This document shows positions 10,517-52,934 of a stretch of 64,000 nucleotides of DNA, piece by piece. The notes beneath the pieces are model-generated. The model made no database searches and was not told where the DNA came from. It was given only the letters and a program-made list of their open reading frames with translations. The translations under genes and the position numbers were made by a program. The DNA is from a virus. The stretch is taken from IMG/VR virus record IMGVR_UViG_3300034407_002866, positions 23,135 to 87,134 of that record; one strand, written 5' to 3'. The stretch's first letter is position 1. Each line of letters begins with the position of its first letter.

Positions 10517-11077
10517 TTAGATTTTTAAAGTAAAGTTATTCTTCGAAAAAAATGTTGTCATACAATATTCCTTTTCTACAGGATAATCATGCGGACATCC
10601 ACGTTCTCTTTTCCTTTCTGGATCTGTAAACGTTGCGGTTTCTTTCCAATCAAACCCATAAACGGTAACACTTTTTGGATTGCACGTTGATATATAATCT
10701 AATGTAATTAAACCTGTTGTAGGATTTTTATGTTTACCTGATTTTAACTTCAAGTGTTTATATAAAGAATCTGGGTACACAAAATCTACTTTGCTAAGAT
10801 TACTAGGAGTCCTGGCCTGATGACCCGCATGCATTTTTTTAACATGTTTTGGTATTTTTTCAAAGAATAACTTATATTCGGAAGTATTCCAAAACACCCA
10901 AATGTCACTTTTACTTCCATGACTCAGCGGAACATTCATTCTCGTGTATAACATAGCCGCCTTATTTAAGCGTACTACAACGTCGTGCGAATCAATTTCG
11001 TTTCCATATTTTTTACTGAACAGTCCCATAGAGTTTCCAACTACAGCAACAGTTTTTTCTTCAAACCATTCTTTCAT
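10517..11077 (-). CDS. GT29 (sialyltransferase-like) glycosyltransferase, copy 1
   Basis: 186 residues. GT29 hallmarks: VAVVGNS (10-16), EIDSHDVVVRLN (27-38, the L-sialylmotif region) and TTGLITLDYI ... VTVYGFDW (S-sialylmotif region). Shorter than eukaryotic GT29 enzymes, as usual for bacterial and phage members. Related to the copies at 11074-11583 and 19144-19680: all open MKE(W/V)FE(E/G)KTV and share VYGFDWKET. The donor sugar cannot be read from sequence; CMP-sugars such as CMP-Kdo are possible. Confidence 0.85.
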   Translation of the reverse strand: MKEWFEEKTVAVVGNSMGLFSKKYGNEIDSHDVVVRLNKAAMLYTRMNVPLSHGSKSDIWVFWNTSEYKLFFEKIPKHVKKMHAGHQARTPSNLSKVDFVYPDSLYKHLKLKSGKHKNPTTGLITLDYISTCNPKSVTVYGFDWKETATFTDPERKRERGCPHDYPVEKEYCMTTFFSKNNFTLKI

Positions 11078-11583
11078 TTTCTTAATTTAAAAACCTCTTT
11101 TTGTTTTTCAAAAAACCGCCTATTACAATAATCTTTTTCTAAGGCAAAATTATGTCTTTCATCAATCATTTTTTTATCATGAAACGATGGGGTTTCTTTC
11201 CAATCAAAACCGTAAACATTTACAGTCTTTGGGTTATATAAAGATATTAAATGTAATATTCTTAACCCAGTTGACGGGCGGTGGTGGCCTAAATCTTTTA
11301 CTAACCACTCTTTATTTATTTCAGGATGATGTAAAATTTCAATAATATTATCACATTTTTTATTGGTTACTTTGTTCGGATTCATTGTTTTAAACCAGTT
11401 TAAAAACCAAACATTCGTTTTTGCACCATGTGAAATAATATCAGATGGTTTGAGTAGAAAAAACCCTCTTTTAATCCTACAAACTACATCTGCAGAATCT
11501 ATTTCATTTCCGTATTTTTTATTAAACAAACTTCTTGCATTGCCAACAACAGAAACTGTTTTACCTTCAAATACTTCTTTCAT
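11074..11583 (-). CDS. GT29-like glycosyltransferase, copy 2
   Basis: 169 residues, paralogous to the neighbouring gene: VSVVGNA, EIDSADVVCRI, STGLRILHLI and VNVYGFDWKET are all kept in order. Internal sequence (40-110) has diverged strongly, so acceptor specificity probably differs. Start overlaps the previous stop by 4 bases. Assignment to GT29 rests on these motifs only. Confidence 0.82.
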   Translation of the reverse strand: MKEVFEGKTVSVVGNARSLFNKKYGNEIDSADVVCRIKRGFFLLKPSDIISHGAKTNVWFLNWFKTMNPNKVTNKKCDNIIEILHHPEINKEWLVKDLGHHRPSTGLRILHLISLYNPKTVNVYGFDWKETPSFHDKKMIDERHNFALEKDYCNRRFFEKQKEVFKLRK

Positions 11584-11589
11584 AATATA

Positions 11590-12267
11590 TCATAATCCGT
11601 ATTGTTGACTGTAATCCATATATATTCTTTCGCGGTGCCATTCATCTGCCATAGACGTTGTTGCAAAGTCGTGAAAACACGGAGTACCTAAAGTGTAATG
11701 TAATAGTTTAGCATTTTTATTTGGACCAAATTCGTCTGGCAGCCAATTCCATTCAATAGGCAATTCACCAATTAAATTATCTTCTAACCATGTAAATCTG
11801 TGAACTTGTGCGCCAGTTGCATTTGAAACAAAATCTGTAGTAACAATTCTATTTTCAGGATGTTCACAGTTCCATAAAATTACACTTGACCAATTTTTTC
11901 GAGGGTAATCTTCGTTTTTTGATCCTAAATATTTTTTAGCTGTTTTAGTTTTATAGTCATGCTTTACTACCATGACTGCTTTTGATTCGTCTCGCATTTC
12001 CCAAAGCTTTGATATGTCATCACGTAATATCATATCCCCGTCAATAAAAATTGCCCAGCCTTTATATTCCATTAAATGTGGAATAAGAAATCGACTATAT
12101 ATAAAATGATTACTGCCATCAGAATGTTTTTCTTCGTAACCATTTAAGAGATTAAGTGATAAAGGATTTAAACTTATTGGGGATGTTGCATGACGAATAA
12201 TAGAGTTAGCACAAACATGATACGCAGTTGCTTCTCTTTTATCGTATCCCATAAAAATTGGTATCAT
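11590..12267 (-). CDS. GT-A glycosyltransferase, GT8-like
   Basis: 225 residues with a start typical of GT8-like enzymes (MIPIFMGYDKREATAYHVCANSI reads as a nucleotide-sugar-binding N-terminus, shown here only in part). It has the metal-binding DxD motif IDGDMI (75-80) and a C-terminal LLHYTLGTPCF segment like the HxxG motif of GT8. Cytoplasmic, no TM segment. Probably adds a hexose to a surface glycan; donor unknown. Overlaps the SDR gene by one base. Confidence 0.82.
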   Translation of the reverse strand: MIPIFMGYDKREATAYHVCANSIIRHATSPISLNPLSLNLLNGYEEKHSDGSNHFIYSRFLIPHLMEYKGWAIFIDGDMILRDDISKLWEMRDESKAVMVVKHDYKTKTAKKYLGSKNEDYPRKNWSSVILWNCEHPENRIVTTDFVSNATGAQVHRFTWLEDNLIGELPIEWNWLPDEFGPNKNAKLLHYTLGTPCFHDFATTSMADEWHRERIYMDYSQQYGL

Positions 12268-12806
12268 TATACAAGTTTCCTTCTACTGTGCATTATATCT
12301 AATGTCAAATTTTTTATTATTATTTCTTTTGGCTGATTCACAATCCATTCGATAATATTAGTTATGTAATCGGTTCCCATCCTAGGATATTCTTTTCTGT
12401 GCTCAGTCATAGGAGTATTCATTCTTCCTAGCTTCATATGAATTATTTTGCAATCAGTGTCAATAAGCTGCAGCTGCGAACATGCCTTTTCAAGAGAGGA
12501 TTTATAAATGGCATATTCGTTAACTGTGTCTTTATTACCGTCAGCACTTACACTTCCAATATTAAGTATTGTGCACTCTCTATATTTATTTTTTTTAAAC
12601 AATTCATATAAAAGATCTGTTTGAAAGTATTTACAATGCGCATTATTAATATATAAATCAAAATCATTTATTAAAAAAGAATTAACACCATCATTTAAAT
12701 CATTACCAGTTGCTCGACTCAATCCTACGACTTCATGATTTTTTGAAAAGGTTTCATACAATGTTTTTCCAAGACCACTCGTATGGCCAGTGATTACTAT
12801 TTTCAT
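12267..12806 (-). CDS. Short-chain dehydrogenase/reductase
   Basis: 179 residues. Classical SDR signs: TGHTSGLGK at the N-terminus (TGxxxGxG), INNAH (NNAG-type), IGSVSADG carrying the catalytic Ser, and YAIYKSSLEKA with the YxxxK pair. Shorter than most SDRs (about 250) at the C-terminus. It lies directly after gmd and a ColD-type gene, so reduction of a 4-keto-dideoxy sugar is a plausible job, but GDP-colitose synthase (ColC) is longer and this is inference. Confidence 0.85.
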   Translation of the reverse strand: MKIVITGHTSGLGKTLYETFSKNHEVVGLSRATGNDLNDGVNSFLINDFDLYINNAHCKYFQTDLLYELFKKNKYRECTILNIGSVSADGNKDTVNEYAIYKSSLEKACSQLQLIDTDCKIIHMKLGRMNTPMTEHRKEYPRMGTDYITNIIEWIVNQPKEIIIKNLTLDIMHSRRKLV

Positions 12807-13804
12807 AATTTAAAAGTACCGCCAACATTTAAAATTTTATGTCTAGATATATCATCTTCAACCATTTCAGATATCATTTTTTCAAATGTATATTCCGGTT
12901 CCCAATTTAATGTATTCTTTGCTTTATTTGAATCAGCGTGTAAACTGTGTAATTCGTTTGGCCTTTGAAATTCTTCATCGGATTTGACATATTGTTCCCA
13001 ATTTGATATTCCTACAGTTTCAAAAGCTATTTTACATAGATCACGCACACTGTGTTTAATACCAGTTGCAATAATAAAATCTTCAGGTTTGTCTTCTTGA
13101 AGCATAAGCCATTGGGCTTTTACATAATCTTTAGCATGGCCCCAGTCTCTTTCGGCATCAAGATTTCCTAATACAATTTTATCAGATTTACCTAATGATA
13201 TTTTTGCTACGCCGTCTGTGATTTTTCTTGAAACAAATTCAATACCGCGTATCGAAGATTCATGATTAAAAAGTATACCAGTACACGCAAACGCGTCATA
13301 ACTTTCACGGTAATTTTTTGTTATATGGTAACCATACAATTTTGCTATTCCATACGGGCTCGCAGGTTCAAACGGTGTATTTTCTGTTTGTCTTCCGTCT
13401 ATGTTGCTGTTACCAAACATTTCACTTGTGCCAGCCTGATAAAATTTAGTGTTAGGTTTGATTCGTCGTATAGCTTCAAGACAATTAAGTGGTCCGATAG
13501 CATCAACATGAGTAGTTACATAAGGTAATCTCCATGAACCACCAACAAAGCTTTGAGCTGCAAGATTATAAAATTCATCAGGTTTTGCTATTTCCATTAC
13601 ATCCATGATACTACACAGGTCGGTGACATCCCCAATAACAGTTTTAAGACCTTTTTCAAATAAATTTAAATATTCGATGTTTGACCAATTTGGGCTTGTA
13701 TATCTTTTTACTAATCCATATACATTATAACCTTTTCCTAAAAGAAGGTCGGCAAGATAGCATGCGTCTTGTCCTGGGAAACCAGTAATTAAAGCAGTTT
13801 TCAT
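12803..13804 (-). CDS. gmd: GDP-mannose 4,6-dehydratase
   Basis: Converts GDP-D-mannose to GDP-4-keto-6-deoxy-D-mannose. 333 residues. TGFPGQDA (7-14) is the Gmd-type Rossmann motif (TGxxGQDG). The catalytic set is visible as TSE (126-128) with Tyr151 and Lys155 in SPYGIAK. Other Gmd signatures are NLAAQSFV, NHESSIRG and RDWGHAKDYV. It lies between a ColD-type dehydratase that uses its product and an SDR; a phosphomannomutase at 52.2 kb could feed the pathway. Confidence 0.95.
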   Translation of the reverse strand: MKTALITGFPGQDACYLADLLLGKGYNVYGLVKRYTSPNWSNIEYLNLFEKGLKTVIGDVTDLCSIMDVMEIAKPDEFYNLAAQSFVGGSWRLPYVTTHVDAIGPLNCLEAIRRIKPNTKFYQAGTSEMFGNSNIDGRQTENTPFEPASPYGIAKLYGYHITKNYRESYDAFACTGILFNHESSIRGIEFVSRKITDGVAKISLGKSDKIVLGNLDAERDWGHAKDYVKAQWLMLQEDKPEDFIIATGIKHSVRDLCKIAFETVGISNWEQYVKSDEEFQRPNELHSLHADSNKAKNTLNWEPEYTFEKMISEMVEDDISRHKILNVGGTFKL

Positions 13805-14961
13805 TTTATATTCCTTATTACATTTGCTGCCATTTGTATATTATCAGAAAGATCTACACAATCGTTACCAATAAAAAAACCATCAAAATGTAATTTATCA
13901 GTTCCAGTAAAATCTCCAACACTATCCCAATTTAATCGGTCTATTACAGGATTGCGCATAAAGTTTCCTGCTACGATAGGGCGTGTTTCAACACCGTTTT
14001 TCGTGAGCTCTTCAATTACCATTTTTCTTTTTCCGGCTAAATCACCTTCAAGAACTAGTCCAAAACCAAACCAACTGCTTTTTTCGTGTTCATCTTGTAA
14101 TCTTATATTAGGAACATCTGCAAAAACCTTTTTTGCGATTTCAGCATTCTTTCTTCGATCTATCATCATCTGCGGCCATTTTTTTAATTGCTCTTGGCCA
14201 ATAGCACCACTCATTTCGAGTGGTCTTACACAATACCCGGGTAATATAAACTTGAAACTGTCTTCAAATGGATCACCGGATTTTGCAAACAAAGGATCAT
14301 CTGAAGTGCTATCTCTTATCCACCCGTGAGCTCGTAGGCTCTTTAAATATTCATAGGTGGTATCGTCATTAGTAAGAACCATTCCGCCTTCCATAGTTTG
14401 CATGTGGTGGCTAAAGAAAAAACTAAAGGTACCCATTTCTCCAACAGATCCGCAGTGCTTATTGTATTCTAATGCACCTAAGCTTTCGCAATTATCTTCT
14501 AATAAGGTAATGTTTCGCTTATCACATATCTCTTTAATTTTGTTGAGTTCTGCTGGATTACCTAAAAGGTTTACAACAAAAACAGCCGCCGTGTTTTCAT
14601 CAATAGCTGCCTCTACTTTACTAGGATCTATGTTAAACGTATATGGGTCAACATCAACAAATCGAATAGTATAACCTAATTGGTGTATTGGAAAATAAGT
14701 TGTGCTCCAGCTTACGGCCGGTACAATAATATTCCCTTTATTTTTATATTTTGGATTTAATGCGAGAGCTGATATAGTAATAAGATTAGCACTACTTCCG
14801 CTATTTGTCATAACAGCATGCTTGCTTCCAAAAAATTCGGCAAATTGGTTTTCGTATTTCTTTACTTCTTCACCCATCGTGTACTTACCACTTGAGATTA
14901 CTCGATGAATAGCGTTAACTTCTTCATCACCCCAGGTATCACTTGCTAATTTATATTTCAT
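13801..14961 (-). CDS. colD: ColD-type GDP-4-keto-6-deoxymannose 3-dehydratase
   Basis: 386 residues, PLP-dependent DegT/DnrJ/EryC1/StrS fold. The usual PLP Lys is replaced by His: SHHMQTMEGG (His185-His186 with this start). This is the hallmark of ColD, which removes the 3-hydroxyl in colitose synthesis. Several long stretches agree with what I recall of E. coli ColD (PAVSWSTTY, LLEDNCES, FKFILPGYCVRPLEMSGAIG, SSWFGF). The start at 14961 fits the ColD N-terminus; 14979 is possible. The substrate would be the Gmd product made next door. Confidence 0.92.
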   Translation of the reverse strand: MKYKLASDTWGDEEVNAIHRVISSGKYTMGEEVKKYENQFAEFFGSKHAVMTNSGSSANLITISALALNPKYKNKGNIIVPAVSWSTTYFPIHQLGYTIRFVDVDPYTFNIDPSKVEAAIDENTAAVFVVNLLGNPAELNKIKEICDKRNITLLEDNCESLGALEYNKHCGSVGEMGTFSFFFSHHMQTMEGGMVLTNDDTTYEYLKSLRAHGWIRDSTSDDPLFAKSGDPFEDSFKFILPGYCVRPLEMSGAIGQEQLKKWPQMMIDRRKNAEIAKKVFADVPNIRLQDEHEKSSWFGFGLVLEGDLAGKRKMVIEELTKNGVETRPIVAGNFMRNPVIDRLNWDSVGDFTGTDKLHFDGFFIGNDCVDLSDNIQMAANVIRNIK

Positions 14962-14963
14962 TG

Positions 14964-15848
14964 TTAATTTCCGATCCATTGTCTATTTCTATTAATAAAA
15001 TTAAATGTTTTGACATTTCTAGCTTCTGCCAGTGTATATTGCCCATTAGCCAAACTACCGAATAATTGTTTTCTATCTTTTTCTTGTAAGTTTTCAATTT
15101 GGGAAATAGAATGAGATAATGGATATGCTGGACACATTTTATCGCATATAACTGGAATTCCTAGTCTTAATGCGTCTAGTGCTCCTGAACTATTAAACGC
15201 AATAACACAATATGCGTTTTTTAATTCTTCTTCAAAAGATGTATCATTTTTAACTTGATGTTTTGGTCTAACTGAGTCATATGATAATTTATCAAGAACC
15301 CAAGGAGAGGACTTTCTCCTTATAACAATAGGGCGATCTGTGTATTTTTTTAATGTTGTAATTACATTTTTTTCCCATTTTCCTTTATCAAAAACCTGTG
15401 ACACAACATCACTGGGCGGTAGTATAACAATATTTTGCTTATTTTTAAAATTGTAGTTTTCAAAATTAACATTAAAGTTAGAATTATACCTGTCGTGATC
15501 TATTTCAGAAAGGATTGCATTTTGTACAAAGCCATTTTTTGTAATTCGCATCCAATATGGATTTTTATATCCTCGATTGAAATATGCATGGTCAATGTAA
15601 TAAAAATCAATATTATGTTGCTTCGCCAATTGAAATAAATGTGCGTTTCCACGAAGCATGCCCGCAAATATAATTGCGTTTACTTCTTTTGGCAAAGGGC
15701 GTGGTCTAATACTAGGCGGTACCTGACTGTTACCTTTTGACTTCGCTAAAAAATGTTTTGTCCAAATTGTTTTTGCGCCAACCGAAGCCCCAAAATACTT
15801 TACGTAAATGTCCTGTTCTTTTTTGCCTGTCAGAAATGAATATATCAT
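14964..15848 (-). CDS. Capsule-type GT-B glycosyltransferase-like protein, copy 1
   Basis: 294 residues. The C-terminal half carries a pattern also present in the genes at 16633 and 18088: a TDRPIVIR strand, a helix ending in LKNAYCVIAFNSSGALDA and then a LGIPVIC loop. It resembles KpsC/KpsS-like or CDP-glycerol transferase-like GT-B folds. The N-terminal YIDHAYFNRGYKNPYW segment probably forms part of the acceptor site. No membrane segment. Specificity unknown; Kdo transfer is one option because the phage encodes KdsA and KdsB. Confidence 0.75.
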   Translation of the reverse strand: MIYSFLTGKKEQDIYVKYFGASVGAKTIWTKHFLAKSKGNSQVPPSIRPRPLPKEVNAIIFAGMLRGNAHLFQLAKQHNIDFYYIDHAYFNRGYKNPYWMRITKNGFVQNAILSEIDHDRYNSNFNVNFENYNFKNKQNIVILPPSDVVSQVFDKGKWEKNVITTLKKYTDRPIVIRRKSSPWVLDKLSYDSVRPKHQVKNDTSFEEELKNAYCVIAFNSSGALDALRLGIPVICDKMCPAYPLSHSISQIENLQEKDRKQLFGSLANGQYTLAEARNVKTFNFINRNRQWIGN

Positions 15849-29328: not shown

Positions 29329-30018
29329 TTAAATTTCTTCAAATAATATGTTATTTATGTAATCGTTTTTATCTTTTTCTGATATTCCCATAGCCAAAAT
29401 AGAACGATGCAAATGCGGATTTAGTTTTTGGTTTTGGCAATATTTGTTTAACAACGGTCTTATGTCACGCCGAGACTCGAGCGCAAACATATTTAAATTA
29501 TCTAAATAATAATCTACTAAATCAGTTGTAACTTGAATAAATTGGTCAAGTTCTTTATCAGTATTAATATTGCTTACTGCAATCATATCACTTGAAAAAA
29601 TTTCACTGGCCCAGGGTGGCAATTCGCGTGGCTTGTTCCATTCCAAACCGGCAACACACATTTCCATATATTCGTGATATGGGTGTGGAAAGCCATATAA
29701 TGGGCTATAATCCATAAACGAGCCAGTAATTTTTTTGGGCCCGGCTACGATATCAAATCCAAGAATTGGCAACTCTATATTCACTCTTGGAAACACATTT
29801 ACATGCATTAACCAAAGGCCTTTGCCATCTTTTGGCGAAATTGTTTTTAAATGGCATTTGCGAATAACATTGGAGCACCAAAACGTGTCGTTCCAATTTT
29901 TAAAATTTAGGTTATTCATTTTTGGTTCTTCATATCTCTCAAACGAGCTATCGAACCTTGTTTCTAAATACTCAGCATATTTATTTAATCTTTGCCATAA
30001 CTTCGGAGTCTGTTCCAT
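29329..30018 (-). CDS. pcyX: Ferredoxin-dependent bilin reductase, PcyX-like
   Basis: Reduces biliverdin using ferredoxin. 229 residues, FDBR fold. The core FPRVNIELPILGFDIVAG and the MDYSPLYG segment with Asp103 (PcyA Asp105 equivalent), plus RELPPWASEIFS, place it near PcyA. The position of PcyA Glu76 is Asn80 here (FPR-V-N against FPR-P-E). Loss of that Glu is what I recall for PcyX, which makes phycoerythrobilin by a four-electron reduction. Overlaps the heme oxygenase gene by 38 bases, so the two are coupled. Confidence 0.88.
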   Translation of the reverse strand: MEQTPKLWQRLNKYAEYLETRFDSSFERYEEPKMNNLNFKNWNDTFWCSNVIRKCHLKTISPKDGKGLWLMHVNVFPRVNIELPILGFDIVAGPKKITGSFMDYSPLYGFPHPYHEYMEMCVAGLEWNKPRELPPWASEIFSSDMIAVSNINTDKELDQFIQVTTDLVDYYLDNLNMFALESRRDIRPLLNKYCQNQKLNPHLHRSILAMGISEKDKNDYINNILFEEI

Positions 30019-36132: not shown

Positions 36133-36933
36133 TTAAAACGCAAAGGATGCCGAAATTGTTGGGACAATTTCTTCAGAATTTAAGTTATAATCCACGCCAG
36201 ATTCTAATGACATGCCACCAAAAACATATTCATATGAACCACCAATATTTTGGGCCATATCATCAGCATCACCAGCAAGATATGCAGTAACACCAAATAC
36301 AGTTGCATCAGCTTCAAAGGCTGCTTTTTCTGCTGCTGAACCGTATGTTCCTGTTAGGCCAATTGATGCAATACTTAGGTCTGTAGTTGCACGTCCGCCA
36401 AGGACCCAATCTTCTGAATTGAAGTTATAATCTACAGATGCTTCTAAACCAATAGCATTTGCACCGACAGAGTACGCACCTTGTATGTTTTCGATATCAA
36501 TTACATCAGCAGTTACGTCAGTAAAGCCAAGACCAACTGTTGCGCCATAAGCATTAGCTATAATGCTTGTACCTAACGCAGGATCAAGTAGAGTCGCGCC
36601 AGTTTCGCCTTCAACAAAAACATTACCTTGTCTACCAAAGCTTATTGATGCAGCACCAACGGTTGTACCAACTGAATATTCGTCGAGAGTAATTGCATTG
36701 GATCCAGTGTCAATACCAAATTCCATAGACCCAAAAGCCAATCCGTTTACAGCAGAAACATCTAAATCTAAAGATGTTGTAGCGCCATAATTATTTTCAG
36801 GTGTTTCTGCAATTACCGTTTTAATTTCACCGCTAATACCAATATATGGTACATATGGCGTTTCGCTGGTTTCTTCTGCAAAAGCTGCAGAACCTGCAAA
36901 CACAATTGCAGCTGTTGTTAAAAACTTATTCAT
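36133..36933 (-). CDS. Outer-membrane porin
   Basis: 266 residues from the ATG at 36933 (GAGGAAA site upstream). Signal peptide MNKFLTTAAIVFAGSAAFAE, then repeated amphipathic beta strands with Gly/Ala/Asp turns (GISGEIKT, GSMEFGID, ASISFGRQG, GLTGTYG, LESGVDYN). It ends in SASFAF with a C-terminal Phe, the BAM recognition signature. Expected product: a beta-barrel pore in the host outer membrane, for solute uptake, receptor masking or superinfection exclusion. Confidence 0.85.
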   Translation of the reverse strand: MNKFLTTAAIVFAGSAAFAEETSETPYVPYIGISGEIKTVIAETPENNYGATTSLDLDVSAVNGLAFGSMEFGIDTGSNAITLDEYSVGTTVGAASISFGRQGNVFVEGETGATLLDPALGTSIIANAYGATVGLGFTDVTADVIDIENIQGAYSVGANAIGLEASVDYNFNSEDWVLGGRATTDLSIASIGLTGTYGSAAEKAAFEADATVFGVTAYLAGDADDMAQNIGGSYEYVFGGMSLESGVDYNLNSEEIVPTISASFAF

Positions 36934-36989
36934 TACATTTTTTCCTCTGTTATTTAAAATAATTGCAACGCTTCTGTTACTAGGTGCGT

Positions 36990-37274
36990 TGCCAACCCTC
37001 ACATACCTTTAGGCTGCTAATGCCATTTTTGGCGCTCTATTTGCGTTTGCATTTAGAAAGTTTGACCAATAACGCAGTCATCCGGTAAACTCCACTTCCA
37101 CTTCCACACCTGTCGATCCCATTTCAGCCCCATCAAAGATACACTGCCAACCGCAGCAGGCGATTTCGTTGGCTATGCCCAGAACAATGTTCCTGTTTAA
37201 ACAGTGTATCTATGGTGGAGCTGCCCGGTATCGAACCGGGGTCCAGTATGTGTCCACGTTGCTTCAACGCTTAC
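36990..37274 (-). ncRNA. ssrA: Circularly permuted two-piece tmRNA
   Basis: Ribosome-rescue RNA in the permuted order. Reading the minus strand: the acceptor piece starts near 37274, holds a T-arm (CCCGG-TTCGATA-CCGGG) and ends CAGCTCCACCA with CCA at 37215-37213. An 81-base intervening segment follows. The coding piece starts at 37131 with GGGGCTGAAATGGGATCGACA, the canonical tmRNA 5' end (first 20 bases are near-universal). GGGGCTG pairs with CAGCTCC (one G-U). The tag reads ANANRAPKMALAA then TAA (37050-37009). CACATAC in the acceptor piece (37246-37252) can pair with GTATGTG just after the tag (37000-37006). The exact outer ends are estimates. Confidence 0.9.
37132..37212 (-). other. Intervening segment of the permuted tmRNA
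   Basis: 81 bases between the two mature pieces. GATACACTG next to the acceptor end and CAGTGTATC next to the coding end are perfectly complementary (9 bp) and would extend the acceptor stem in the precursor. An inner GCCAAC/GTTGGC pair forms a second stem. Expected to be removed by host tRNA-processing nucleases. Confidence 0.8.
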
Positions 37275-37280
37275 TAATTA

Positions 37281-37309
37281 TATATAATCCATTGTAGTCC
37301 AAATGTCAA
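37281..37309 (-). promoter_or_regulatory. sigma70-type promoter of the tmRNA gene
   Basis: TTGACA, 17-bp spacer, TATATA on the minus strand, placing the transcription start about 7 bases upstream of the acceptor piece. Confidence 0.85.
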
Positions 37310-37360: not shown

Positions 37361-37429
37361 CTAAGCGCCATCATCCATTTCTTTAAAATCGTCTTCTTCG
37401 GTATCTTCATATAGATATTCATCATTCAT
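37361..37429 (-). CDS. 22-residue acidic peptide after kdsB
   Basis: ATG at 37429 overlaps the kdsB stop (ATGA). Reads MNDEYLYEDTEEDDFKEMDD followed by GA: half of the residues are acidic. Coupling and bias suggest a real micro-gene, but it could be chance. Confidence 0.45.
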   Translation of the reverse strand: MNDEYLYEDTEEDDFKEMDDGA

Positions 37430-38106
37430 TTGTTAGCTTCTTTCCATTTTTTAGCATCTTCTGGCGTGTTTATTTCTATTCCATTAAAGTCAGTTTGCAA
37501 TACTCCAATGTCAAATCCATTTTTAAGCCAGCGTATTTGCTCTAAAGCTTCGATACGTTCTTCTTTTGTAATCTCCATATTAGGATACATTTCCAATGCC
37601 CATCGTTTATATCCATATATACCTAGGTGGTGATCGCCATAACCAGTGATACCTCTTCCAAACCATAGACATTTATCACCTACTCTTACTAGCTTAACAG
37701 TGTTAGGATCATTCTGCAACTCAGAAGGCATTAATGCACACATAGTTGTAACAGTGTAGTTTTCCAAATGCCACTCAGTTTTTTCAATCATATGTTGAGT
37801 TACATCAGGCATATCACCTTGGACATTGATAAACTTATCATAATCATCAAAGAAAGAATTCTTAATAGCACCTGCGCATCGCGCTGTGCCATTTTCATAT
37901 TCACCTTCTTCAATCCAGCACTTGCTCGATCCAAATAAATTAAACACTCTCAGATCATCTGTAAGCACATATGTATCTAAACCTGACTTCTTGCACTCAT
38001 TATATACACGCTGTATCATGGGAACACCGCCAAGTAGAGTCAAAGGTTTACCTGGAAATCGTGTGCTTGCAAATCTAGCTGGTATTAATATTGCCGTTTT
38101 AGTCAT
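37426..38106 (-). CDS. kdsB: CMP-Kdo synthetase
   Basis: 3-deoxy-manno-octulosonate cytidylyltransferase: Kdo + CTP gives CMP-Kdo. 226 residues. N-terminal IPARFASTRFPGKPL (8-22) is the nucleotide-binding signature; NGTARCAG, NVQGDMPD, LGIYGYKRWAL and ERIEALEQIRWL follow in KdsB order. A little shorter than bacterial KdsB (about 245). Lies 138 bases downstream of kdsA. KdsC and KdsD are not seen and would come from the host. Confidence 0.93.
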   Translation of the reverse strand: MTKTAILIPARFASTRFPGKPLTLLGGVPMIQRVYNECKKSGLDTYVLTDDLRVFNLFGSSKCWIEEGEYENGTARCAGAIKNSFFDDYDKFINVQGDMPDVTQHMIEKTEWHLENYTVTTMCALMPSELQNDPNTVKLVRVGDKCLWFGRGITGYGDHHLGIYGYKRWALEMYPNMEITKEERIEALEQIRWLKNGFDIGVLQTDFNGIEINTPEDAKKWKEANK

Positions 38107-38115
38107 TTATTGATC

Positions 38116-38232
38116 CTAATTACTTGTGTCTTTACTATTATCTATTGCAATTTGCACAAGTAAATAAGGAATGTAAGAAATTGTTAACCAAACACTCCAA
38201 AATATACAATTCCATAAAATTATGTCAGCCAA
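38116..38232 (-). CDS. 38-residue membrane peptide with TTG start
   Basis: TTG at 38232 preceded by AAGGAG 8 bases upstream. Peptide is hydrophobic throughout (ADIILWNCIFWSVWLTISYI, then PYLLVQIAID and a polar tail). One TM segment. Located between kdsA and kdsB. Confidence 0.5.
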   Translation of the reverse strand: MADIILWNCIFWSVWLTISYIPYLLVQIAIDNSKDTSN

Positions 38233-38244
38233 TATATTATCTCC

Positions 38245-39024
38245 TTATTTACTAATAGCGATATTTATTTTTTTTATTTGTTTTACTACAGCTTCAAAAT
38301 TTTCTAATTTAAGCATATTTGGACCATCGCTTGGCGCGTCATCAGGCATAGCGTGGACTTCGAGGAAAAATGATTTGATCCCAAGAGCAGCCCCTGCATA
38401 AGAAAGGCTAGGCACGTAATCACGATTCCCACCGCTACTATCCCCCAATCCCCCGGGTTTTTGTACAGAGTGCGTAACATCAAACACAATATCATTATCA
38501 TAAGTGTTGAGCATGTAAATAAGACCAGTGTAATCAACAACGAGATTGTTATATCCAAAACTAGTACCTCTTTCAGTTATCCAAACTTCTTTTGCACCAT
38601 CACACTTGCTTAATACTCCCTTTACATCCCAAGGAGCCATAAATTGCCCTTTTTTGATATTTACAATTTTATCTGTAGCACAGGCTGCTTTGATTAAATC
38701 AGTTTGTCGACACAAGAACGCTGGAATTTGATAAACATCAACTGCATCTTTAAATTCCTTTTCAATCCTGGCAATCTGTACGACATCATGCACATCAGTA
38801 AGTGTTTTTACACCCAGTGTTACCTTTAGTGCAAGAAAGTCTGTTAATGTCGCATCCATACCTTGGCCGCGCTGACCGTTAGCACTACTCCGATTTGCTT
38901 TATCATAACTAGCTTTAAAGTAATATTCTATACCGTATTTGTCGCATACGCGTTTACACTCTTTAGCAATTTCTGCACTTTGTGCAAGTGTTTCGTGCTG
39001 GCATGGACCTGCAATAATTCTCAT
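38245..39024 (-). CDS. kdsA: Kdo-8-phosphate synthase
   Basis: Condenses PEP with arabinose 5-phosphate. 259 residues. FKASYDKANRSS (36-47), TDVHD, IPAFLCRQTDL, NIKKGQFMAP, TERGTSFGYNNLVVD and DVTHSVQKPGG are diagnostic (each well under 20 residues). Cys8 in IAGPCQ is the metal-ligand Cys of the metal-dependent class; metal-independent enzymes have Asn there. Its product, after dephosphorylation, is the KdsB substrate. Confidence 0.95.
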   Translation of the reverse strand: MRIIAGPCQHETLAQSAEIAKECKRVCDKYGIEYYFKASYDKANRSSANGQRGQGMDATLTDFLALKVTLGVKTLTDVHDVVQIARIEKEFKDAVDVYQIPAFLCRQTDLIKAACATDKIVNIKKGQFMAPWDVKGVLSKCDGAKEVWITERGTSFGYNNLVVDYTGLIYMLNTYDNDIVFDVTHSVQKPGGLGDSSGGNRDYVPSLSYAGAALGIKSFFLEVHAMPDDAPSDGPNMLKLENFEAVVKQIKKINIAISK

Positions 39025-41486: not shown

Positions 41487-41930
41487 TTAAATGTCAGCGT
41501 GCGAATCTAACATCCATTGCATTTTTTCATGGAAGTCAATGCGATCTTCTAATAAGCTAGCAATTCCTTGCTGACTGAGCTGGTTTGCAATGCCGTGTGC
41601 TTCTTTAAGTTCTGCAACAAATCTTTGATTATCCTGTGCGAGGCGGACAAACATAAACTTAGGGGAAGGAATTGACAATTCGTCTGAAATTACACTAAGC
41701 TCAGAAAACCTTTTTAAAGATCCTGGAGCAAAAGATTTTAAAGTACGAATCCGTTCAGCATATTCGTCGATAGAACCAAAAACATTTTCATAATATTCTC
41801 CAAAGAAATCGTGATAAGCTTTAAAGTTTTCGCCTGTTACATTCCAATGATAATTGTGTGATTTTAAATATAAGGAAAAGGCTGATGCTAATACAACCTT
41901 CATTTTTTCAACTAAGTTTTCTAATTCCAT
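41487..41930 (-). CDS. dps: Dps-like ferritin
   Basis: Iron-storing, DNA-protecting mini-ferritin that forms 12-mers. 147 residues. The dinuclear ferroxidase signature is present: SHNYHWNVTG with His27-type ligands, AYHDFFGEYYENVFGSIDEYAERI giving the His/Asp/Glu set (quoted in two parts), and a C-terminal DFHEKMQWML helix. Length is typical. Late promoter 30 bases upstream. May protect phage or host DNA from iron-driven oxidation. Confidence 0.9.
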   Translation of the reverse strand: MELENLVEKMKVVLASAFSLYLKSHNYHWNVTGENFKAYHDFFGEYYENVFGSIDEYAERIRTLKSFAPGSLKRFSELSVISDELSIPSPKFMFVRLAQDNQRFVAELKEAHGIANQLSQQGIASLLEDRIDFHEKMQWMLDSHADI

Positions 41931-42589: not shown

Positions 42590-42666
42590 TGGTAGGCCCT
42601 TAGGGACTTGAACCCCAATCGGCAGTGTTATGAGCACTGTGCATTAACCAATTATGCTAAAGGCCC
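42590..42666 (-). tRNA. tRNA with anticodon CAU (Met elongator or Ile2)
   Basis: Acceptor GGGCCTT/AGGGCCT with G-U at 1:72, anticodon stem CAGTG/CACTG with loop CTCATAA, T-arm TGGGG-TTCAAGT-CCCTA, discriminator A, CCA encoded. The CAU anticodon reads Met, or Ile (AUA) if C34 is made lysidine. The phage also encodes a TilS-like enzyme at 51.1 kb, which favours Ile2. Confidence 0.92.
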
Positions 42667-51068: not shown

Positions 51069-51701
51069 TTAAATATTATAATCTTTGTTGATTTTTTTAG
51101 AAATTACTTTATGTAACCCGGGATTTACAATCAGCGCCTTTTGCATAATTTCGTGTCGTATAAAGTTTCTCATATATGTTGTATCTTCATTTGACGTATC
51201 CTCGATCCATGGTACACTATTGCGCCTACACCAATTTACCAATTCTGCCTTTTTATTTAATCGAAACGGTCGAATTACATTTCTGTTTGAATATGGAATG
51301 ATTTTTCCTTCGCCGTGTAAACTAGACCAAATCCATGTTTCTAAGCAATCATCTAGGTGGTGGCATGTTATAACTGGCGAGGATTCTTGAAAAAAGAAAT
51401 TATATCTTTCGTTTCTCCAATATTCTTCTTCTGACTCTCTGTTTTTTCTTTTATTACAAATTTGCCCTATGCTTAATGTCATAGATGTTGCTGTTGGTGT
51501 TTCACTAAAAACACTATTCCTTTCATTAACATATTCACGTAAAAATTCTAAAGCATCAGCCGACGTCTCAGTGCCGTGGTCAAAAAACATAAGATTTACA
51601 TTATGATTTCTTCTCAAAAAATCTACAGCGGCCATCGAGTCTACACCCCCTGAACATGCTACGTTAATATTACGTGGGAGTTTTCCCTGTAATTGAATCA
51701 T
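51069..51701 (-). CDS. tilS: TilS-like tRNA(Ile)-lysidine synthetase
   Basis: 210 residues. PP-loop CSGGVDS (16-22); HHLDDCLETW matches the TilS HHxDDxxET motif; PWIEDTSNEDTTYMRNFIR (about 170-188) matches the TilS PxxEDxSNxxxxxxRNxxR block. This is the catalytic N-terminal domain only; the C-terminal tRNA-binding domains of full TilS are absent. Would convert C34 of a CAU tRNA to lysidine so that it reads AUA as Ile. The phage encodes a CAU tRNA at 42.6 kb. Confidence 0.87.
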   Translation of the reverse strand: MIQLQGKLPRNINVACSGGVDSMAAVDFLRRNHNVNLMFFDHGTETSADALEFLREYVNERNSVFSETPTATSMTLSIGQICNKRKNRESEEEYWRNERYNFFFQESSPVITCHHLDDCLETWIWSSLHGEGKIIPYSNRNVIRPFRLNKKAELVNWCRRNSVPWIEDTSNEDTTYMRNFIRHEIMQKALIVNPGLHKVISKKINKDYNI

Positions 51702-51761: not shown

Positions 51762-52174
51762 ACAGTTTCTCTTATCGCAACTCTTTTTCTTAAACCGCTG
51801 GAGCTAAATCTATGATTTCGTTTGTTAAAATAAATGTAAATGCCTAAACGTTTACAAATTTCACGCCCTGTAAAATCTTTATCTTTATATTCTTCACCTA
51901 ATATACGAACATCTATTGGATACAATTCTAATATATCTTCAAGATCTTTTTCTGTTTGATATACTAAAATTTCGTCAACATATTTTACTGCACTCAGTTG
52001 TGTATATCTTTCAACAATAGTTTGTATTGGTGAATTTTTTTCATCTCGGTCCACACTAGGATCTATTTGAAGAGCACAAATTAAATGATCACATTTTGTC
52101 TTTGCTTCTCTTAACATCATAATATGTCCTGAATGTAGTAAATCAAATGATGATGCTACAATACCAGTTTTCAA
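51758..52174 (-). CDS. Cytidylyltransferase-like nucleotidyltransferase (TagD/RfaE2 type)
   Basis: 138 residues. SSFDLLHSGH (8-17) is the HxGH motif; VDEIL and RFSSSGLRKR (about 122-131, ISSTxxR type) complete the active site. Size and layout match glycerol-3-phosphate cytidylyltransferase or the ADP-heptose RfaE C-domain. Would activate a sugar or polyol phosphate as CDP/ADP adduct. Overlaps the PMM gene by 4 bases. Confidence 0.87.
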   Translation of the reverse strand: MKTGIVASSFDLLHSGHIMMLREAKTKCDHLICALQIDPSVDRDEKNSPIQTIVERYTQLSAVKYVDEILVYQTEKDLEDILELYPIDVRILGEEYKDKDFTGREICKRLGIYIYFNKRNHRFSSSGLRKRVAIRETV

Positions 52175-52872
52175 TCTTTAAGCTCCTTTAAAATTTTAAA
52201 TGTATGTTCCCAATTATCTACACAAAAAGATTTACTTGGGTGTTTCAATTCTTTAGCTAATGGGTAATCGTTTCCATCTTTATCCATTTTATCACCGAAG
52301 AAATATATAACATCTTTACTTGAAAAATCTTTGAGTATTTGGGATTTGTCATTTCCCTTTGGGTAAATATCTAGACCTGTTTCTCCGCCAACACTTGCAG
52401 TTATATTTGGAAAAAGAATATTAATTTTTTTTGATATTTTTATACGTTCATTTGTTTTTAGATCCCATTTTACATACTGCGATCTTTCTTCCTGGGAAGC
52501 ACCGCGGCCAACAATACTAAAATTAATTGAACCAGGTCTTTCTTCTATGTGTTGTCCAGCTCGTATAGGAAATTTGCTTTTATTAAGCCATAAATTTAAA
52601 TTTGATTTAAGATCGTTGGGTAATTTCCACTCGGAAGTTCTTATGTTGCGGTCGCCTTGGTAAACATCATTGCCGGAACAATTATAAACTCGTTTACAAT
52701 TAAAAAAAATAAATTCACCAATCTGTTCAATAGTTTTAGCGCGATCACTTCCTGTAACTAAATAAACATGATGTGATTGACAAAAAACACTAAACCAAAT
52801 CGCAAAATTTTTGTTCATTTTTTCTCGGCTTGGAGTTAAAGTGCCATCAACATCAAATATATATTTTTTCAT
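52171..52872 (-). CDS. Phosphomannomutase, eukaryotic (HAD) type
   Basis: 233 residues from the ATG at 52872 (AGGAAA site). DVDGTLTPSR (7-16) is the HAD nucleophile motif. SINFSIVGRGAS matches the PMM N-S-x-GR segment, VGGETGLDIYPKGNDKSQIL the GG...D.FP.GxDK block (quoted in two parts here: VGGETGLDIYP, KGNDKSQIL) and FFGDKMDKDGNDY the final metal loop. Converts mannose-6-P to mannose-1-P, the precursor of the GDP-mannose used by Gmd. Confidence 0.88.
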   Translation of the reverse strand: MKKYIFDVDGTLTPSREKMNKNFAIWFSVFCQSHHVYLVTGSDRAKTIEQIGEFIFFNCKRVYNCSGNDVYQGDRNIRTSEWKLPNDLKSNLNLWLNKSKFPIRAGQHIEERPGSINFSIVGRGASQEERSQYVKWDLKTNERIKISKKINILFPNITASVGGETGLDIYPKGNDKSQILKDFSSKDVIYFFGDKMDKDGNDYPLAKELKHPSKSFCVDNWEHTFKILKELKD

Positions 52873-52874
52873 AT

Positions 52875-52934
52875 CTATATTTTTCCTACCCAATGAGTAC
52901 AATCATCACACGGATCTTGCATACCCAATAACAT
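52875..52934 (-). CDS. 19-residue peptide with DPCDDC motif
   Basis: ATG forms a TAATG overlap with the DUF1289 stop. Reads MLLGMQDPCDDCTHWVGKI. Tight coupling and the C-x-x-C suggest a real micro-protein, but length gives little certainty. Confidence 0.4.
   Translation of the reverse strand: MLLGMQDPCDDCTHWVGKI

Follow-up and report, generated by a model that had tools for sequence, protein, structure and literature searches.

A permuted two-piece tmRNA gene in a T4-like virus record and the apparently exchangeable segment between its two pieces

The minus strand of the 64,000 nt stretch of viral DNA analysed here (the window) raises the question of whether this phage carries a tmRNA gene of its own, in the permuted two-piece arrangement, and of what occupies the segment that separates the two pieces. 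An earlier note, made from the sequence alone, had proposed such a gene with a tag frame, and the searches agreed on it. ARAGORN called a permuted tmRNA at 37306–36918 of the minus strand, with the tag ANANRAPKMALAA*, and the covariance search that the note had advised returned both the permuted tmRNA family RF04321 (37274–37009, minus strand, 115.7 bits, E 7.2e-22, cut-off 47) and alpha_tmRNA RF01849 (37313–36962, minus strand, 90.2 bits, E 3.8e-23, cut-off 50); with these E values, the tmRNA match is far beyond chance.

A permuted tmRNA gene in a T4-like genome

The acceptor piece lies 5′ of the coding piece, the order that fits the permuted covariance model, and the tag frame contains an alanine resume codon, a hydrophobic end and a stop (Table 1). 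The acceptor halves pair, as had been anticipated, at 7 of 7 positions (GGGGCTG with CAGCTCC, including G3-U70), and the strand CAGCTCC is followed by A73 and an encoded CCA. The G3-U70 wobble is an identity element for alanyl-tRNA synthetase (AlaRS). The intervening segment (IVS) has exactly the 81 nt previously counted, although the end formerly assigned to the feature, 36990, was about 28 nt short, the coding piece reaching about 36962. The proposed promoter, TTGACA-N17-TATATA, is indeed present immediately 5′ of the acceptor piece, and its sequence TTGACATTTGGNCTANAATG has a single exact occurrence in the window; however, a generic promoter scan of the locus found sites no commoner than in shuffled sequences and did not list this one, so that it is kept here as a weak candidate for the tmRNA promoter. 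Together, the models and the pairing confirm from the sequence that the locus is a permuted two-piece tmRNA gene.

Table 1. Features of the tmRNA locus and its downstream gene (window coordinates).
Feature	Coordinates	Strand	Basis and remarks
Candidate promoter TTGACA-N17-TATATA	37281–37309	-	TTGACA at 37309, TATATA at 37286
tmRNA acceptor piece (5′ segment, T-arm, encoded CCA)	37213–37274	-	RF04321 and RF01849, pairing; 5′ end approximate; CCA end at 37213
Intervening segment (IVS), 81 nt	37132–37212	-	Length, fold; between CCA and coding piece
tmRNA coding piece (GGGGCTG acceptor strand, tag frame, 3′ helices)	36962–37131	-	RF01849; start at 37131; 3′ end model-based
Tag reading frame ANANRAPKMALAA*	37009–37050	-	ARAGORN
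Downstream gene, 266-aa signal-peptide protein	36133–36933	-	Translation; directly 3′ of tmRNA

The window comes from an 87,134-bp IMG/VR virus record, an uncultivated fragment, and contains T4-like genes for UvsX, a DnaB-like helicase, topoisomerase II subunits, DNA polymerase, an SbcC-like protein, gp32 and gp59. T4-like replication genes stand on either side of the tmRNA locus, in agreement with the phage location given before, and the same locus is present in a 182,738-bp viral contig; the tmRNA gene is thus in a virus genome and not in host DNA. No SmpB was found in the window's record nor in nine related viral records, including the 182,738-bp contig, and therefore host SmpB must serve.

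The 266-aa gene downstream is likely co-transcribed with the tmRNA, and the same order, tmRNA followed by a signal-peptide gene, is seen in the relatives L155, L157 and L158. Its product has no Pfam family; the AlphaFold model is all-beta, with low confidence (pLDDT 42), and the protein is probably a beta-rich outer-membrane protein. As a side observation across the viral clusters, a signal-peptide gene is the next downstream of the tmRNA in 15 of 42 (versus 13% of ORFs, p 3e-4) by a home-made signal-peptide rule, other neighbours also being common.

Several other genes of the window were recorded. Directly upstream of the tmRNA, at 37426–39024 (minus strand), there are KdsB-like and KdsA-like genes (cytidylyltransferase and DAHP/KDO-8-P synthase families), and a sugar cluster at 10517–14979 (minus strand) comprises sialyltransferase-like, glycosyltransferase 8, GDP-mannose dehydratase and aminotransferase genes; a phosphomannomutase gene is found at 52171–52902. 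There are also genes for a ferredoxin-dependent bilin reductase (29329–30018, minus strand), a ferritin-like protein (41487–41930, minus strand) and a PP-loop ATPase (51069–51701, minus strand) that may be TilS-like and could have as its substrate the phage tRNA with a CAT anticodon at 42590–42666 (minus strand).

Permuted tmRNAs and their intervening segments across phages

The earlier note knew of no described phage case, but two-piece tmRNAs of phages are known, if little studied: the methylophage Melnitz (2022), a myophage of OM43 bacteria, has one, and two-piece structures make up 53 of the 133 phage tmRNA structures counted in the same work (PMC9004378). The window's gene is itself a further case of these. 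In phage DSS3_MAL1 an ssrA is annotated, and permuted tmRNAs also occur in phages MD18, RcXuper, V10, DSS3P8 and Phosso; our pattern scans revealed them in well over 100 viral contigs, one degenerate 5′ pattern alone retrieving at least 120. A search for bacterial relatives by exact 5′ motif found none for the window's own sequence.

Among 94 distinct viral tmRNAs, all 7 acceptor pairs are kept in 91 and G3-U70 in every one, while at pair 5 C-G, G-C and A-U alternate; this is the pattern expected of functional tmRNAs. Nearly all viral tags start with A-N-x-N and end in -AA, and the tag of the relatives L087, L157, L158 and L036 is ANANRAPEMALAA. In L017, L029, L072, L010, L021 and others, the tag frame apparently begins only about 45 nt after the start of the coding piece, as though these tmRNAs lacked the first pseudoknot. 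Separately, roseophages DSS3_MAL1, V10 and DSS3P8 (L002, L242 and L243) have a GOLLD RNA just 5′ of their permuted tmRNA.

The segment between the pieces follows a different pattern. At the same locus in the related phage L087, the coding piece is 97–98% identical to that of the window, the upstream region 80% and the downstream region 74%, versus 21% for the IVS, which is 183 nt long in L087. Conversely, L005 has unrelated flanks, an acceptor piece 98% identical and an IVS 86% identical to those of the window. Two isolates that infect Ruegeria pomeroyi, V10 and DSS3P8, are 99–100% identical around and within the tmRNA pieces, but their IVSs are 56% identical, near the background for unrelated DNA aligned end to end. 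Judged by eye, one IVS type is common to L158 and L049, and another to L070 and L046. IVSs are also longer in phages than in bacteria, with medians of about 77 versus 25 nt (Mann-Whitney p 2e-15), the bacterial set being the best-scoring 150 of 270 genomes and perhaps leaning toward short IVSs. These comparisons indicate that the IVS serves phages as an exchangeable slot in their permuted tmRNA genes, and this looks new; from the mosaic patterns, the exchange would occur by recombination between the conserved halves of the tmRNA. Cargo could be accepted there because the IVS is discarded on processing.

The IVS of the window is closed by a perfect stem, as the note had it, although of 10 exact pairs (AGATACACTG/CAGTGTATCT) rather than 9, and of about 12 in the predicted fold (−26.4 kcal/mol). 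It carries the conserved motif TTCTGGGCATAGCCAACGAAA. Among viral contigs, exact copies of this motif were found only in a near-identical relative of the window (L006) and in two unrelated phages (L005 and L241), and always lay inside a tmRNA IVS. No Rfam family matches this IVS, the cargo of which, as judged by the fold and the shared motif, appears to be a structured RNA module. A coding role for this particular IVS was considered and rejected: it has no ORF of at least 20 aa, and its counterpart in L005 differs by 2 nt in length.

Longer phage IVSs often contain an ORF that starts 11–21 nt after the CCA, immediately 3′ of the closing stem's left arm, that usually has an AAGG-type ribosome site, and that ends in or just past the right arm; Rfam confirmed permuted tmRNAs around these ORFs. 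Such nested small protein genes were seen in L245–L299, L007, L008, L011, L020, L031, L032, L048, L120 and L222, and their families include MNWDWHWISWFKG... and the L031 type. The annotations of the isolates examined list no CDS within the IVS, and among the bacterial tmRNAs with a long span, that of G132 has a 165-nt IVS with no evident coding. A 410-nt IVS, also with no annotated gene, occurs in the jumbo phage isolate Sinorhizobium phage Phosso (L244, 348900–350900).

Among IVS clusters of at least 100 nt, an ORF that has a ribosome site covers 75% or more of the segment in 6 of 19, versus 0.13 expected from shuffles. In the four families with diverged pairs, substitutions by codon position are 15/12/46 (p 5e-7), and the most diverged pairs have dN and dS of 0.14 and 1.28 (family A), 0.06 and 0.46 (family D) and 0.10 and 0.78 (family J), with a dN/dS of 0.14–0.29 in family C; within the D pair and within the J pair, IVS lengths differ by exactly 3 nt. 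These substitution patterns indicate that the four gene families (A, C, D and J) are under purifying selection.

Family A (MNWDWHWISWFKGTPFQWGEF..., about 45 aa) has 55 viral relatives, of which 44 lie within a tmRNA IVS, as assigned by sequence motifs, with a constant start about 15–18 nt from the CCA; of the remainder, seven are outside an IVS, two have just a CCA before them and two are truncated where the contig ends. Among the seven outside, L285 and L291 adjoin a tmRNA (the sequence of L286 is that of L285), and in the other four, L252, L254, L260 and L277, Rfam found no tmRNA. In family F, the 352-nt IVS of L031 contains a 117-aa ORF whose product shares 45% identity over 91 residues (E 2e-15) with AGE60311.1, a hypothetical protein that pelagiphage HTVC010P encodes in an ordinary, free-standing gene; for families A, B, D and G, no free-standing homologues were matched in isolated phages. 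In families A, F (L031), H (L087) and J the ORF enters the mature coding piece and stops at the UAG of GAAAUAG. As read from these sequences, an IVS slot with protein genes is well supported. We consider it probable that the phage IVS at large is a recurrent exchangeable cargo slot: in many phages it would hold small-protein genes that are translated, and in others, that of the window among them, structured RNA modules that are conserved.

Proposed working of the tmRNA and alternative explanations

We propose that a single precursor would be transcribed leftwards with the acceptor piece, the 81-nt IVS and the coding piece, and that host tRNA-processing enzymes would excise the IVS, leaving two mature pieces held together via the acceptor stem. 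Host AlaRS would charge the RNA (G3-U70, A73), which host SmpB and EF-Tu would deliver to ribosomes stalled on broken mRNA; the tag ANANRAPKMALAA would then be added to the stalled product, its -LAA end fitting the degradation signal of host ClpXP. In infection it would most likely prevent ribosomes from being tied up as host and phage mRNAs are cleaved, and in this sense the protection of translation during host mRNA decay, which had been suggested for this locus, is plausible. The anatomy of the gene, its pairing, tag and conservation, the exchange of IVSs and the purifying selection on IVS genes elsewhere can be read from the sequences, whereas processing, charging, the use of host SmpB and the benefit to the phage are what we infer from them. 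As a whole, we hold it very likely that this is a functional phage tmRNA of the alphaproteobacterial permuted type, partnered with the host in ribosome rescue, whose IVS is an exchangeable slot.

The RNA might instead serve mainly to tag host proteins for degradation, recycling amino acids early in infection. This was suggested for Melnitz by its authors (PMC9004378) and would suit the ClpXP-type -ALAA end of the window tag, but tmRNA acts on stalled ribosomes whatever the source of the mRNA, and no sequence sign of host preference was seen; we regard this as unlikely to be the main role. We give distinctly less credit to a decoy that competes with or inhibits host tmRNA: although the tag-less tmRNA reported for phage DS6A provides a precedent (PMC11915505), and phages alter the interior of the tag, a decoy would need no tag frame, and the frame is complete and conserved in the window and its relatives. 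Acquisition of tRNA and tmRNA genes is common among phages, and the 115.7 bits of the window are below the 140–167 bits of most bacterial genomes (among the matches listed, the best 150 of 270), as could be expected if the gene were a decaying, functionless copy from a host. Against this, acceptor pairing, G3-U70, CCA and tag are conserved over 94 distinct viral tmRNAs from many phage types, and such decay appears very improbable.

For the IVS, the alternative is an unconstrained spacer that varies freely and in which the ORFs of other phages arose by chance. Most IVSs shorter than 100 nt do in fact have no ORF, that of the window among them, but chance would hardly produce the excess of spanning ORFs with ribosome sites (6 of 19 clusters), the codon-position bias, the free-standing homologues of IVS proteins or one family recurring in 44 IVSs, and we find a mere spacer quite improbable.

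If the IVS is instead a cargo slot, it would be a hidden site for genes that annotation overlooks, and genes would be nested there in a new way, a single transcript yielding both a small protein and a ribosome-rescue RNA. Because the stop codon overlaps the 5′ end of the coding piece, it becomes possible to test for a link between translation and tmRNA maturation. Where the stop of an IVS gene lies in GAAAUAG, cleavage at the 5′ end of the coding piece would remove it and give a non-stop mRNA, that is, a tmRNA substrate. A feedback loop in which precursor cleavage turns the IVS message into a substrate of the tmRNA is a speculation that we think unlikely.

Comparison with known systems

The window's gene resembles alphaproteobacterial ssrA of the Caulobacter type (RF01849/RF04321) in gene order, acceptor stem, T-arm, encoded CCA and the A-N-x-N start of the tag; it differs in that phage IVSs are longer and are exchanged between otherwise alike genes. 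As in Melnitz and related pelagiphages (PMC9004378), an alphaproteobacterial-type permuted tmRNA is encoded by the phage with a protein gene close behind, which in the window is for a signal-peptide protein and in Melnitz for a transcription coactivator. Unlike the Melnitz type, the window has no match to the glutamine riboswitch (RF01739), which does adjoin the tmRNA of L120. The IVS is not discussed in the Melnitz paper (PMC9004378).

A large tmRNA survey (PMC11915505) describes a permuted tmRNA whose IVS holds an intact tRNA-Ala gene and another whose IVS holds a repetitive element; within the open-access literature covered, neither protein-coding IVS cargo nor IVS exchange was found in the passages of the survey that were consulted. 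The phage IVSs differ from the cases described there in that several protein families recur in them. The IVS proteins matched no endonuclease family at a significant score. Even so, the arrangement is like that of the homing-endonuclease genes in group I introns of tmRNA genes, where a protein gene is also nested in a precursor segment that is removed; unlike those introns, the phage IVS is not self-splicing, and the two pieces that it separates are not joined.
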